From IMG/VR virus record IMGVR_UViG_3300034190_000192, positions 1 through 29,506 of that record: DNA of 29,506 nucleotides; one strand, written 5' to 3'. The translations under genes were made by a program, and so were the position numbers. The number at the start of each line of letters is the position of its first letter. Position 1 is the first letter of the stretch. Positions 5,074 through 29,095 of the stretch are shown in pieces. This DNA comes from a virus. A model generated the notes under the pieces. That model made no database searches. It had not been told where the DNA came from and worked only from the letters and a program-made list of their open reading frames with translations.

Positions 5074-5937
5074 ATGTCTGTTGAAGTAACCACGGCATTT
5101 GTCCAGCAATATTCTGCAAACGTGCAGATGTTATCACAGCAAAAAGGTTCTCTTTTGCGTGATGCAGTGCGTGTAGAAAGCATGACTGGCAAAAATGCCT
5201 TCTTTGATCAGGTGGGCAAGGCAACAGCGCAAAAGCGTACAACGCGCCACGCCGACACTCCACAGATCGACACACCCCATGCAAGACGCCGGGTGTCACT
5301 TGTTGACTATGAATACGCTGATTTGATTGACGAGCAAGACAAGGTTCGTATGCTCATTGATCCAACCTCTGCTTATGCACAAGCTGCTGCTTTTGCATTA
5401 GGCCGTGCGATGGATGATGAGATCATCTCAGCAGCTTTGGGTACAGCATTTACTGGTGAGACAGGCAGCACATCAACTGCGCTTCCTGCTGGTCAGCAAA
5501 TTGCTGATGGTAGTGCAGATTTGACTGTTGCAAAACTAAGGACTGCTAAAAAGACCTTAGACCTTGCGTCAGTTGATCCGTCAATCCCACGCTACATTGC
5601 TGTAGGCCCAGATCAGATTGAAGCATTGCTTGGCGATACAAACGTCACCAGCAGTGATTTCAACACGGTCAAAGCTTTGGTACAAGGTGAAGTCAATCAG
5701 TTCATGGGCTTCAACTTCATCACAACAAATCGTCTGTCAAAGTCTGGCAACATCCGTTCATGTTTTGCATGGGCAGAGGATGGTCTTGCTCTGGCGATTG
5801 GTAAAGATGTTATGGCAAGAATTGATGAGCGTTCCGATAAGGGTTACGCAACTCAGGTCTACTATTGCATGAGCATCGGTGCTACTCGCATGGAAGAAGA
5901 AAAAGTTGTCCAGATTGACTGTGACGAATCGGCTTAA
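5074..5937 (+). CDS. Major capsid protein
   Basis: 287 aa, preceded by a strong AAAGGAG ribosome site as expected for the most abundant virion protein. It fits the HK97-fold capsid group seen in phiKMV-like and marine podoviruses: N-terminal arm with QQYSANVQMLSQQKGSLLRDAV, a DYEYADLIDEQDKVRMLIDP segment near 88-107, an Ala-rich spine helix (AQAAAFALGRAMDDEIISA), and a C-terminal P-domain-like strand region. There is no slippery stop suggesting a frameshifted minor form like T7 gp10B. It follows the scaffold and is followed by a possible decoration protein and a terminator. Confidence 0.93.
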   Translation: MSVEVTTAFVQQYSANVQMLSQQKGSLLRDAVRVESMTGKNAFFDQVGKATAQKRTTRHADTPQIDTPHARRRVSLVDYEYADLIDEQDKVRMLIDPTSAYAQAAAFALGRAMDDEIISAALGTAFTGETGSTSTALPAGQQIADGSADLTVAKLRTAKKTLDLASVDPSIPRYIAVGPDQIEALLGDTNVTSSDFNTVKALVQGEVNQFMGFNFITTNRLSKSGNIRSCFAWAEDGLALAIGKDVMARIDERSDKGYATQVYYCMSIGATRMEEEKVVQIDCDESA

Positions 5938-24562: not shown

Positions 24563-25216
24563 TTACCACTCCAGTTTTAATCTACGCGCAGCTTGCGCTA
24601 AGGTTTCTTCAATCTTATTGAACACTGCTGGTGCATGTTCTTTTGCTTCTTTCATGCGTCCAGCAAAATAGTCTGGCGAAACCAATTTCTCAAAGTCATT
24701 AGATGTTTTCATGTTAGCTGGGCTACATTTCATATCAACCTCACGCAAAAAGTCCCTCGCCTTCTGCTCTTCTGGGTTGAATCCGCTGTTTTGTGTAGGC
24801 TGAGTTTTCTCTGCCATGGCTTCAGTCTTACGCTCAACAGCATCTAATTCATTGGCTGATGCGTACTCGCCGCCTGACAATCCAATCGAACTCAAGGCAC
24901 GGCCTACGGCTGATGTCTCACAGTTTTCCAAGGCTGATGTAGTGTTGACATGGCCTTGGCCTCTGATTTCCTCTGCCATGCCAGAGCCTATCTGCACACC
25001 GTTGGCATTTACAACGATGGCTTTGATGACAACACGATGACCGTCATCAACAAGCACGTTGGTATCTACGCCATACTCTAAGCCATGAAACCGTCTGAAA
25101 GCTTCCATGCGATGTACGACTTGGGTGTATTTCTTGCCACCCCGCTGGGCTACGCCATGAGATTTGTTCAATTCATTGACGAAATCCATAGTGTTGGAAA
25201 AGCTATTTTCCGCCAT
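24563..25216 (-). CDS. Putative single-strand annealing protein (Rad52/DdrA-like)
   Basis: 217 aa, ATG 25216 with a GGAG site inside the preceding small gene. Residues 29-67 (KYTQVVHRMEAFRRFHG..., RVVIKAIVVNANG) and 78-127 (GMAEEIRGQG, ALENCETSAVGRALSSIGLSGGEYASANEL) follow the pattern of a Rad52-like phage annealing family that I know by its E-T-S/G-A-V/I-G-R-A-L motif and acidic G-x-G-E/Q-x. Such proteins pair complementary ssDNA. The operon also encodes a RecB-type nuclease, as in phage exonuclease/annealase pairs. The C-terminal 80 residues are linker plus helices. Confidence 0.7.
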   Translation of the reverse strand: MAENSFSNTMDFVNELNKSHGVAQRGGKKYTQVVHRMEAFRRFHGLEYGVDTNVLVDDGHRVVIKAIVVNANGVQIGSGMAEEIRGQGHVNTTSALENCETSAVGRALSSIGLSGGEYASANELDAVERKTEAMAEKTQPTQNSGFNPEEQKARDFLREVDMKCSPANMKTSNDFEKLVSPDYFAGRMKEAKEHAPAVFNKIEETLAQAARRLKLEW

Positions 25217-25349
25217 GTCTTTGCTCCATCAAATCCGCAATCAGTTTCATGGCTGTGGTAAAGGCAACCATTTGTTCTAGCACCTTTGCCTCTAACTCAT
25301 CAATTTTCATCTGCATTATGTCAATGCGCTGTTGTGTTTCATCATCCAT
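25203..25349 (-). CDS. 48-aa coiled-coil microprotein
   Basis: Overlaps the upstream gene by 8 nt and the annealing-protein gene by 14 nt. It encodes MDDETQQRIDIMQMKIDELE followed by a further helical stretch ending MEQRHGGK. Heptad-like spacing of I/M/L suggests a coiled coil. It is short enough to be skipped by gene callers, but without it there would be an unusual 126-nt gap in an otherwise gapless operon. Function unknown. Confidence 0.65.
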   Translation of the reverse strand: MDDETQQRIDIMQMKIDELEAKVLEQMVAFTTAMKLIADLMEQRHGGK

Positions 25350-25707
25350 TTTCTTTTGCCTTCTGTTTAGCCAGTATTGCTACGTTATCTGTATATTGAT
25401 CTATAAACATTTCAGTGACTCTGTTGGTTTTGACGTAGGGAAGTGCAGAATCTTCCTTTGGAAAATCATCGAAACCAAAGTGGATTCCATGATCATCTGC
25501 AATACCCTTGAGCCTTGCCATCAGCAAGCAGCTTCTTGACCAACCAAGCAACTCATCAATGTCTATGTCATCCTCAAAAGACTGTGTGTTGTCCCAGAAA
25601 TGACGCTTGCTCCATTCTGTCAACAAGCCAAACTCTTGCTTGGTAAGCTTCAAAGTGATCATTTGATTTGTCTTTGGTTTGTTTTTTACGCCTTTTGGTC
25701 TACCCAT
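25342..25707 (-). CDS. Unknown protein with basic AT-hook-like N-terminus
   Basis: 121 aa. It starts MGRPKGVKNKPKTN, a GRPKG motif often seen at the start of phage DNA-associated proteins and similar to an AT hook core. Then comes a helical segment (ITLKLTKQEFGLLTEWSKRHF), an acidic stretch (EDDIDIDELL) and a helical C-terminus. It overlaps the winged-helix gene by 8 nt. DNA binding is plausible but not shown. Confidence 0.65.
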   Translation of the reverse strand: MGRPKGVKNKPKTNQMITLKLTKQEFGLLTEWSKRHFWDNTQSFEDDIDIDELLGWSRSCLLMARLKGIADDHGIHFGFDDFPKEDSALPYVKTNRVTEMFIDQYTDNVAILAKQKAKENG

Positions 25708-26059
25708 TTTCTTCTCCCTGATAGTGTTTGGATGCCCACATAACTAGCTGGCTTCTGCCGCTGATAGCTTTACGCTTGCGGTGGTCTACGATAACCAGCC
25801 CCTTCTCTTTTAACTGCTTGTACCGGGCAGTGATTGTGCTGTATCGGTGATGTGACAAAACCTCTAGCACCTGATCAGATATGCAACCGCTTGGCCCAAA
25901 GCCTTCGATAACCTCATAGACAACCTGTTCCATGTAGGTAGCGTTGATACTCTCTGCCGCCTCATGGCTTGTCGATGGATCTTCATTACGCACCAACTTG
26001 AATGGTGGCGTGTATGAAAACAAATCGTCCATGTCATCAAGATCTTTTGCTGTAATCAT
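25700..26059 (-). CDS. Winged-helix DNA-binding protein
   Basis: 119 aa from ATG 26059, which overlaps the nuclease stop (ATGA); the longer frame to 26155 is just open sequence inside the nuclease gene. After an acidic N-terminus comes EDPSTSHEAAESI (26-38), a motif known to me from phage winged-helix proteins, then helices with the recognition part (ISDQVLEVLSHHRYSTITARYKQLKEKGLV) and a beta wing ending KAISGRSQLVMWA. It is likely a transcription regulator or replication-initiation-type DNA binder. It sits within the recombination operon. Confidence 0.75.
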   Translation of the reverse strand: MITAKDLDDMDDLFSYTPPFKLVRNEDPSTSHEAAESINATYMEQVVYEVIEGFGPSGCISDQVLEVLSHHRYSTITARYKQLKEKGLVIVDHRKRKAISGRSQLVMWASKHYQGEENG

Positions 26060-26922
26060 TTCCAAAACTCCCTTGCTAGTTTGAGTATGTGTGGCCCATG
26101 ACGCCGGGTGATCTCCGTAAAATCCGGCGTCACAAGGCCAGCCAGTGTGTGCCAATTCCCATTAGCGGCACGAATTAAATTTTGTGTGGTGATCCAACTG
26201 CGCTTCAAATCCTGATATATATTCTCAAGATGATCCTCTTGAAGCAGTGGGCAGTTGTCTTCATTCCAGATGTGATAGCCTGATGCGCTGACTTGCAACA
26301 GCGATGGCTTCTGCCCGGTGGCTCTCCAATATCCAGCCATTTGCCAGATATTATATTCAGTTGGTTGCATGTCTGGCTTGGGTATGCGCCATGTCCGGGT
26401 GCCATCTTTCTTGACAGGATTGCGTTGTGGCATCTTGCATTTGAGATCGCACAGTACATCACCCCCATAGTAATCGCGGAACATCATAATCTTTACGTCC
26501 AACTCTGGAACTGTGAACCATGTCTGATGTTCGCCGTGAATCGTGTTGAGGCCATGACGCCTCTGCCATTCTCTCAATCCCTCTACCGCATGGCCTAGCA
26601 TGTCTGGCAAGAACTCCCGGTAAGCTTCATGTTCTTCTTTGTCTTTGCCATCATCCCAATCACGCGGCTGATACGCATCATAGTCTGCAAGCATATTCCG
26701 GGTGGCTTCTGCGATAGGCATACCATCTTGTCTGCCTTTATCTGGGTTATATTTTTCAAGACCCTCAACGCGGTTTAGACCGCCCTCGACTATGCGTCCT
26801 GTAAACATTGCCGTGTTTGTGGGGAACTGCATCTTGTGCTGATGACGCAACCAAAGTTTGAAAAGCATTTCATACTTGGCTGACGTACCGCCTGATACGC
26901 TATCGTGGGTGTACCAATCCAT
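26056..26922 (-). CDS. RecB/Cas4-type PD-(D/E)XK exonuclease
   Basis: 288 aa. The nuclease core is visible: D150 (MMFRDYYGG), then D159-L-K161 (GDVLCDLKCK), and a RecB-type motif IV Q194-x3-Y198 (WQMAGYWR). An upstream E131 (HGEHQTWF) may complete the site. There is no ATPase domain. Such proteins resect double-stranded ends to produce ssDNA for an annealing protein, which here is encoded three genes downstream. ATG 26922 overlaps the preceding stop (TAATG). A role in phage recombination or end processing is inferred from the pairing. Confidence 0.8.
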   Translation of the reverse strand: MDWYTHDSVSGGTSAKYEMLFKLWLRHQHKMQFPTNTAMFTGRIVEGGLNRVEGLEKYNPDKGRQDGMPIAEATRNMLADYDAYQPRDWDDGKDKEEHEAYREFLPDMLGHAVEGLREWQRRHGLNTIHGEHQTWFTVPELDVKIMMFRDYYGGDVLCDLKCKMPQRNPVKKDGTRTWRIPKPDMQPTEYNIWQMAGYWRATGQKPSLLQVSASGYHIWNEDNCPLLQEDHLENIYQDLKRSWITTQNLIRAANGNWHTLAGLVTPDFTEITRRHGPHILKLAREFWK

Positions 26923-27146: not shown

Positions 27147-27171
27147 TGCTTTCTCCCTTGCTAGTTTTTAC

Positions 27172-27459: not shown

Positions 27460-27682
27460 GGGTTTCCGTTACGTCAAAGATTGGTTTGATCCTAGTGATG
27501 TCGTTCCAGAGGATTGCGATTTGTGCAATGGCACTGGCAAGCTACCGCCGGAAACTGAGCAAGGTGATGGCAGACTGGCTCGACTTGCGGCGGCTGATAT
27601 GTGTCTTAGATGTGAAACCTTTTTGGATGGAAGCCTGACTTGCCCGGTGTGCAAGCTGGTGTATGGAAGCCGCCATGAGTAG
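27419..27682 (+). CDS. DnaJ-type CxxCxGxG zinc protein with C-terminal zinc ribbon
   Basis: 87 aa, overlapping the regulator by 41 nt. Two DnaJ-like zinc motifs are seen: C8-Y-R-C11-N-G-K-G and C33-D-L-C36-N-G-T-G, enough to form one zinc site. A second pair C62-x2-C65 and C75-x2-C78 looks like a zinc ribbon. There is no J domain, so this is not a DnaJ chaperone. Small proteins of this kind are frequent in phage early regions with unknown roles, possibly nucleic acid or protein binding. Confidence 0.75.
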   Translation: MTFLTRQCYRCNGKGFRYVKDWFDPSDVVPEDCDLCNGTGKLPPETEQGDGRLARLAAADMCLRCETFLDGSLTCPVCKLVYGSRHE

Positions 27683-28184
27683 ACAAAAAGATGATTTTTA
27701 CCCAACGCCATTAGTAGCTATTGAAGCATTGCTTGACCATGAAAGATTTGATGGTGACATCTGGGAACCAGCTTGCGGTGATGGTGCTATCTCTGAGCCT
27801 GTTTCTCTGTATCACAATGTTATCAGCACTGATCTAAATGAATACGGCTTTGGCGATTCGGGCATAGACTTTCTGATGGAACAAAAGCTTGCAGCCCCCA
27901 ACATAATTACAAACCCACCATACAAGCTGGCTCAACAATTCATACAGAAGGCTATTGATCTGGGTGCAAAGAAGCATTGCTGGTTGTTGCGTCTTTCATT
28001 CTTGGAAGGCCAGCAACGCCGTGTCTCTCTCTTTGACAACCATAGGCCAGCTAGGGTCTGGGTGTTCTCTCAACGGCTGACAATCTGGCGCGGTGATGAA
28101 GAACCAAACGGCAATGGCACCACTGCTTATGGCTGGTTTGTTTGGGAAGGTAACGCAACAGAAACAAGGATTGATTGGCTATGA
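27675..28184 (+). CDS. Small adenine-specific DNA methyltransferase-like protein
   Basis: 169 aa from ATG 27675 (MSRQKDDFYPTP, a start typical of this group); ATG 27663 is also in frame. SAM-binding motif I is EPACGDG (31-37), followed by an acidic residue at the end of strand 2 (D53 in STDL), and the catalytic NPPY is at 80-83. This points to N6-adenine modification. It is very short with no evident target-recognition domain, so it may use a partner, have relaxed specificity, or act on another substrate. No restriction enzyme is nearby. The last codons form the first copy of the 16-bp repeat. Confidence 0.8.
   Translation: MSRQKDDFYPTPLVAIEALLDHERFDGDIWEPACGDGAISEPVSLYHNVISTDLNEYGFGDSGIDFLMEQKLAAPNIITNPPYKLAQQFIQKAIDLGAKKHCWLLRLSFLEGQQRRVSLFDNHRPARVWVFSQRLTIWRGDEEPNGNGTTAYGWFVWEGNATETRIDWL
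28169..28184 (+). repeat. 16-bp direct repeat, left copy
   Basis: GATTGATTGGCTATGA covers the last codons and stop of the methyltransferase gene and the ATG of the GNAT gene. A perfect second copy lies at 28682-28697, 513 bp on. Confidence 0.9.
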
Positions 28185-28687
28185 AAGTAAGGTTAGCAAA
28201 ATTAGAAGATCTTAAATATATTAATCATTTAAGTAAAGTTGAAAGCCACTCACTTGGTTTTATACCTAACACCGCATACGAGTCTGCCATAACAGGCATT
28301 AAAACAGGCAAGAGATGGTCTAATGTTTGCAATGATAAATTATGGGTTTGCGAAGAAAATAAAGACTTGGTTGGTTTCCTTTTGATGTCTTTTGGCAAAT
28401 GGTCAAAAGTTAATCAAATAGCAATACAAGAAGATGCTAGACTCATTGAGCGTGGGAAAGTGTTGCTGCAAGCTGGCATGGATCATGGGCTGTCTGTAGG
28501 CAAGCAAGACTTTGTTTGCGGATGTGCAGACGATTTGCCATCTAATCAATTCTGGAAAGGTGTTGGTTGGAAAAAGTTGGGGCAGCGCAAAGGCATATCT
28601 CATACAAACACTTGGAAAGAAACTTCAGACAGGACAGTAAATGTTTACCACAATCAGTTAAACAGTTTATTTTTTGAGAAAGATTGA
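28181..28687 (+). CDS. GNAT-family N-acetyltransferase, probable inserted cassette
   Basis: 168 aa from ATG 28181 (TTG 28175 also in frame). The N-terminus MKVRLAKLEDLKYINHLSK is typical GNAT strand 1/helix 1. Further on are VCEENKDLVGFLLMSF (strands 2-3) and the C-terminal FWKGVGWKKLGQRKG with a final VNVYHNQL strand. The acetyl-CoA loop would lie near ARLIERGKVLLQAG and is not a textbook Q/RxxGxG. The gene is visibly more A+T-rich than the genes either side and lies between two perfect 16-bp direct repeats, pointing to recent gain. The substrate is unknown. Confidence 0.8.
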   Translation: MKVRLAKLEDLKYINHLSKVESHSLGFIPNTAYESAITGIKTGKRWSNVCNDKLWVCEENKDLVGFLLMSFGKWSKVNQIAIQEDARLIERGKVLLQAGMDHGLSVGKQDFVCGCADDLPSNQFWKGVGWKKLGQRKGISHTNTWKETSDRTVNVYHNQLNSLFFEKD

Positions 28688-28697
28688 TTGGCTATGA
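28682..28697 (+). repeat. 16-bp direct repeat, right copy
   Basis: Second perfect copy of GATTGATTGGCTATGA. It covers the GNAT stop codon and the ATG of the resolvase-like gene. Confidence 0.9.
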
Positions 28698-29095
28698 CCG
28701 ACAGTAGACAAAAGGGTGCGGCGTTTGAACGTCAGATTGTAAACTATATCAAAGACCATCTTGGCGAATCATTGCCTGAGATGCCGAAACGAAACCTCTC
28801 TCAATATCAAATCAAAGGTGAGGCTGACATTGTGATCCCCGGCTGGTCTATTGAGTGTAAAGCCTACGCTTCTGGCTCAACATACAAGCAAGCATGGTGG
28901 GAACAAGCTTGTGCGGCATCCGGCGACAGGTTCCCGGTCTTGATATACAAGTTTAACAACCGCCCAATTCGTTGTGTCATACAGCTTATGGCTATCTGCC
29001 GCGACTTCTCATATGACCCACGGCTTGTTGCAGAAATGTCACTAGCAACTTGGGTTCAAGTGGTGCGTGAAAGTTATGGGGTTGACAAGAAATAA
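28694..29095 (+). CDS. Holliday-junction-resolvase-like PD-(D/E)XK nuclease
   Basis: 133 aa from ATG 28694. The order of motifs fits the small archaeal-Hjc-like/phage PDDEXK group: K7-G-A-A-F-E12-R in the first helix, G-E-A-D45-I-V, then E54-C-K56, and a later Q71 in WWEQACAA. These enzymes cut branched DNA, which in phages clears junctions before packaging. It is encoded with a DNA methyltransferase and next to a recombination operon. It could instead be a general phage endonuclease of the same fold. The region just after its stop folds into a three-way junction. Confidence 0.75.
   Translation: MTDSRQKGAAFERQIVNYIKDHLGESLPEMPKRNLSQYQIKGEADIVIPGWSIECKAYASGSTYKQAWWEQACAASGDRFPVLIYKFNNRPIRCVIQLMAICRDFSYDPRLVAEMSLATWVQVVRESYGVDKK

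Follow-up and report, generated by a model that had tools for sequence, protein, structure and literature searches.

A GNAT-fold gene framed by 16-bp direct repeats at a gene overlap of a marine phage: a probable single-gene insertion

The origin of mosaic junctions at phage gene boundaries is debated, with recombination at limited homology on one side and illegitimate recombination followed by selection on the other (PMC3945230, PMC3029335). In mycobacteriophage LRRHood, genes 43-46 are an insertion relative to phage Cali and are flanked by 29-bp direct repeats (PMC3029335). Phage morons typically carry their own promoter and terminator (PMC3029335). T4-family phages under selection have been observed to undergo deletions of 6.5-10 kb precisely between direct repeats of 5-10 bp (PMC5449768), and Rad52-like phage recombinases catalyze a relaxed homologous recombination with exchange at short or diverged homology (PMC3945230).

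We analyzed a 29,506-nt stretch of DNA (hereafter the window) from a marine phage, whose terminase and portal are nearest to those of HTVC010P-type Pelagibacter phages (about 50-59% identical). A GNAT gene in this window belongs to the LRRHood-type insertion class, which was published with 29-bp repeats (PMC3029335). In both cases, a segment absent from close relatives is flanked by two repeats, of which the relatives have one copy; one repeat is found where the upstream gene ends and the other ahead of the downstream gene. The LRRHood insertion comprises four genes and 29-bp repeats, whereas the window has one gene and 16-bp repeats. Moreover, one LRRHood gene is nearly identical to a known phage gene, whereas our search found no donor with the window GNAT allele (best relative, about 82% identical in amino acids and 73.7% in nucleotides) and no GNAT relatives in annotated phages or in genome contigs. 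Like a moron, the window GNAT is an extra ORF of different composition between genes that are contiguous in relatives. However, it overlaps the upstream stop codon and its end lies 6 nt from the next ATG, and the insert contains no terminator-like site and only one weak promoter-like match, inside the coding sequence, with neither signal above that of shuffled sequences.

The GNAT gene and its framing repeats

The inserted gene (28181-28687, plus strand; 507 bp) encodes a 168-aa GNAT-fold N-acetyltransferase, as assigned by Pfam, AlphaFold and Foldseek against the PDB. Upstream lies a DNA methyltransferase gene (27675-28184, plus strand; phrog_799), and downstream lies a gene of the PDDEXK_15 nuclease/RusA-like Holliday junction resolvase family (28694-29095, plus strand; PF24608, phrog_244), hereafter the nuclease gene. 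Pfam GNAT models matched all 41 aligned relatives (41/41, best 4e-6), whereas the window protein itself, with an E value of 0.0077, did not reach the curated cut-off. The AlphaFold model (pLDDT 84.7) matched GNAT enzymes (acetyltransferases) in the PDB with an E value of 3.5e-10; acetyl-CoA binding and acetyl transfer are predicted functions. The window GNAT protein matched no Mom model (PF25680). A preliminary description of this DNA had pointed to a higher A+T content of the gene, and this was confirmed by its GC of 37.5% and GC3 of 33.7%, compared with 46-50% and 41-49% in the neighbors. In the other phages checked, too, genes of the GNAT family are more AT-rich than the DNA around them.

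The same description placed two perfect 16-bp copies at both gene junctions, and we found GATTGATTGGCTATGA exactly at 28169-28184 and 28682-28697 on the plus strand, with no third copy in the window at up to three mismatches. With one mismatch, the repeat extends to 19 bp (28166-28184 and 28679-28697). The copies are 513 bp apart from start to start, that is, one 16-bp copy plus 497 bp; the 513 bp reported earlier is thus correct as a start-to-start distance, but the length between the copies is 497 bp. The left copy consists of the last codons and stop of the methyltransferase (...AGG ATT GAT TGG CTA TGA, RIDWL and stop) and overlaps the GNAT start at ATGA. The right copy begins with GATTGA, the end of the GNAT gene, and runs into ATGA, where the nuclease gene starts. 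The repeat therefore consists of the methyltransferase 3′ end together with the 4 bp by which that gene overlaps the nuclease gene. Since the GNAT gene ends in ...TTT TTT GAG AAA GAT TGA, of which the last six bases are the first six of the right copy, the duplicated methyltransferase tail supplies the GNAT stop codon in a different frame. The native C-terminus of close GNAT relatives is NSLFF or nearby; therefore, the terminal EKD of the window protein is probably junction sequence.

A simple base-composition estimate gave 0.087 expected 16-bp pairs across the window and 0.0035 within 600 bp. Repeat length alone is not decisive, because the window also contains a second exact 16-bp direct repeat, ATTGAAGCATTGCTTG, at 5617 and 27720. 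These copies lie 22 kb apart, the one at 27720 within the methyltransferase gene, and are unlinked to the GNAT gene. The position of the repeat at gene starts is decisive: when the ATG starts of plus-strand window ORFs with 80 aa or more were compared in pairs (351 pairs), the GNAT and nuclease starts had 16 bases in common, and the runner-up pair had 9. The earlier statement that the match is improbable by chance is thus supported, and a chance origin was ruled out.

The empty site in related phages

Relatives for comparison of the empty site were retrieved by the nuclease and methyltransferase genes. In 12 close relatives (methyltransferase 93-97% identical), the methyltransferase gene is joined directly to the nuclease gene with one junction copy; the single-copy empty site was recorded in L001-L006, L014, L015, L018, L022-L024 and L194, some of which have GGGTATGA for GGCTATGA. 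The flanks of the closest relative, L001, are 95% and 96% identical to the window, and the identity is undiminished at the junction. When one repeat and the insert were removed from the window, the predicted product was identical to L001 at 134/136 bases, so that the one-repeat join foreseen in the preliminary description does exist. All 35 distinct directly joined pairs (35/35) lacked the GNAT gene, down to 57% methyltransferase identity. Insertion in the window lineage is therefore far likelier than repeated loss, and the GNAT gene is most simply read, by parsimony, as a gain in the lineage of the window phage itself. An ancestral GNAT gene lost from every relative by recombination between the repeats would find some backing in the 16-bp repeat, which would permit precise loss, and in the spontaneous phage deletions documented between 5-10 bp repeats (PMC5449768); we nevertheless consider it very unlikely, as the empty pairs span a wide divergence and the composition of the gene is unlike that of its neighbors.

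The window insertion is known from a single metagenomic record, which raises the question of whether a GNAT-bearing phage was misassembled with the window phage. However, both flanks are collinear with L001, a chimeric record would have to be joined twice at the same 16-mer and restore two working gene junctions, and the same anatomy occurs in other records with two further GNAT-family insertions (see below). We regard misassembly as highly improbable.

In L007-L013 and other relatives without the methyltransferase, the nuclease gene starts behind unrelated sequence and the 16-mer is absent. The right copy is therefore derived from the methyltransferase 3′ end rather than being a required nuclease leader; it comes from the METHYLTRANSFERASE, and a leader or ribosome-binding-site origin was ruled out. 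A related proposal is that selection has kept the repeat as a translation-initiation sequence required ahead of every gene start, so that it would be no trace of insertion. Both copies do end in a start codon, and a start codon stood at the right copy in 15/21 junctions with a repeat score of at least 6, compared with 20% of random positions. Start codons were also frequent at junctions without repeats (23/42), the 16-mer is mostly methyltransferase coding sequence, and the duplicated overlap of locus L151 joins convergent 3′ ends without a start codon. Together with the unrelated sequence that precedes this nuclease gene in some relatives, these observations leave the proposal with very little probability.

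The 16-mer was found in 22 contigs of the viral collection, as a single copy in each, and at least 8 of these copies lie at methyltransferase/nuclease junctions; the right-hand junction sequence matches 22 contigs. No other gene in that collection was framed by two copies of the 16-mer.

Nine further methyltransferase/nuclease pairs contain an insert, with other genes in the slot; among these are Mom-family genes (L252 and L253; PF25680), a cytosine-methyltransferase-like gene (L244) and, in L250, another GNAT. A Mom gene occupies the same slot in L021 as in L252. Among cultured Roseobacter phages, CRP-811 lacks and CRP-821 carries a cytosine methyltransferase just upstream of a related nuclease, joined at the ATG. 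Given these varied genes, the methyltransferase/nuclease slot is a cargo position. In L021 (970-3160), a PAPS-reductase-family gene, a GNAT and a Mom-family gene lie near one another in this slot, hinting at a cargo site for DNA modification. Additionally, in a comparison of L003 (985-1497) with L036, the methyltransferase and nuclease starts were similar (ATGGCAGATAGCAGACAGAAAG and ATGACTGACAGTAGACAGAAAG), and a 22-bp imperfect direct repeat lies at the methyltransferase ends; by sequence, the methyltransferase gene itself looks like a cassette.

A putative route of insertion

Overall, the comparison with relatives shows a single-copy empty site, a precise duplication at gene ends and two intact neighbors, with the polarity set by parsimony. 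We consider it very probable that a single GNAT ORF was acquired horizontally and inserted at the methyltransferase/nuclease overlap, with duplication of 16 (up to 19) target bases. The gain by short homology proposed in the preliminary description is supported in part, by the single-repeat joins and the missing gene in relatives, the AT-rich composition and the non-chance repeat. Two short-homology or illegitimate joins would have brought in a bare ORF. On the left, the GNAT start ATGA would have joined against the ATGA overlap; on the right, the join would precede the nuclease ATG by about 12-15 bp, behind the GNAT codons for ...NSLFF and the 6 nt GAGAAA. As no donor allele was found, a base-level reconstruction of the joins is not feasible. 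In the filled locus, the methyltransferase stop overlaps the GNAT ATG and the GNAT stop precedes the nuclease ATG by 6 nt, and this translational chain suggests how the insertion may have been retained: selection would favor whole, translationally chained overlapping neighbors, which the duplicated junction provides. An ORF that enters two overlapping genes breaks one of them unless the overlap is duplicated, which accounts for all three GNAT cases described here, the convergent one included.

The remaining direct repeat would also allow the precise loss of the GNAT gene. Such loss is plausible because phages delete between repeats of 5-10 bp (PMC5449768); the T4-family deletions were observed, whereas the loss at this locus is a prediction.

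Rad52-like recombinases offer a possible route of exchange, and the preliminary description suggested that the phage's own annealing protein may have helped; the window encodes one candidate for such a protein (24563-25216, minus strand). This conserved protein may be a single-strand annealing protein: it matched only phrog_11717 and phrog_23738, both without an assigned function, 7/24 of its relatives gave weak Rad52 scores (best E 0.015), and its structure model had no significant PDB match. By these profiles, scores and model, no recombinase was identified with confidence in the window. The insert itself encodes no recombinase, the GNAT gene being its only gene, and no terminal inverted repeats pair its two ends. 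A transposon or MPME-type element was ruled out in the absence of terminal inverted repeats and a transposase, and RNA or tRNA elements were likewise ruled out. The term "insertion/excision cassette" of the preliminary description suggests a dedicated mobile unit, but the searches found no recombinase in the insert, no terminal inverted repeats and no further gene using the 16-mer pair.

Parallel insertions and other junctions

We examined 80 GNAT-family loci for framing direct repeats, and 3/80 had an exact repeat of at least 12 bp: the window (16 bp), L151 (15 bp) and L121 (12 bp). Among 4000 draws of mismatched boundary pairs, 12 bp was reached in 0.3% and never exceeded. The L121 GNAT is absent in L289 and L290, where the empty site is a single AAAATGGGATTGTTAA, the upstream gene end overlapping the start of a Mom-like gene; L121 duplicates this overlap on both sides of the GNAT (AAAATGGGATTG[T/C]TAA, 15/16). 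The GNAT of L151 and L152 is absent in L300 and L301, and the duplicated 20 bp (18/20) is the 3′ end of an integrase gene overlapping a convergent gene. With an integrase as neighbor, an att-related origin of the L151 repeat is conceivable. Sequence comparison thus indicates that two further insertions of the GNAT family, in unrelated phage settings, share the anatomy of the window locus, with 16-20 bp around the gene overlap duplicated. In another GNAT presence/absence pair, L112 and L113, the divergence was too high for a duplication to be read.

Three insertions of one family in unrelated settings, with duplications of 16, 16 and 20 bp, and the presence of this family at many different loci could also reflect a dedicated process acting in trans, in which a staggered-cut enzyme, such as an integrase or a nuclease, inserts the GNAT family with target duplications of about 16-20 bp. 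We judge this unlikely. Exact repeats of at least 12 bp were confined to the three loci, the three duplicated sequences have no obvious motif in common, the window insert lacks terminal inverted repeats, and the repeats at other cargo genes were varied and mostly shorter, as expected if they arise non-specifically. Insertion of a bare ORF at the overlap remains our preferred reading.

Across 63 clusters of presence/absence junctions at these loci, an approximate set in which some are replacements rather than pure insertions, 21 had a direct repeat score of at least 6 (about 0.7 expected, at a chance of 1.1% each) and 14 a score of at least 8 (about 0.1 expected, at 0.16% each). The exact 16 bp of the window is the longest exact run among the presence/absence junctions compared.

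Less familiar than the insertion class itself is the apparent recurrence, by sequence, of overlap duplication for one roaming GNAT family at three unrelated sites. These data suggest a constraint, namely that overlapping genes tolerate an insertion when it duplicates their overlap. A general rule, by which compact phages gain bare ORFs at overlaps and the overlap (about 10-30 bp) is duplicated in the process, is a tentative extension that we would doubt as it stands; the GNAT family fits it at three unrelated sites with known empty alleles. If it were true, each new gene would start out framed by direct repeats, with its neighbors preserved and scarless loss permitted. For the debate on mosaic junctions, the locus offers a recent event for which the empty allele is known and the duplication is precise, and the same gene family provides two parallel events elsewhere.

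The window differs from L001 by a second single-gene insertion, a 121-aa ORF without an assigned function (25342-25707, minus strand). The 10-bp direct repeat that frames it reads CCATTTTCTT on the plus strand, with the left copy at 25346-25355 and the right copy at 25704-25713, both listed on the minus strand. The minus strand of the window has exactly two copies of the motif AACTAGCAAGGGAG, at 26068-26081 and 27153-27166. Similar forms are found repeatedly in relatives, where most lie on the opposite strand to the nuclease gene, and the motif adjoins several presence/absence junctions; it is possibly a shared leader or ribosome-binding segment that aids gene shuffling.
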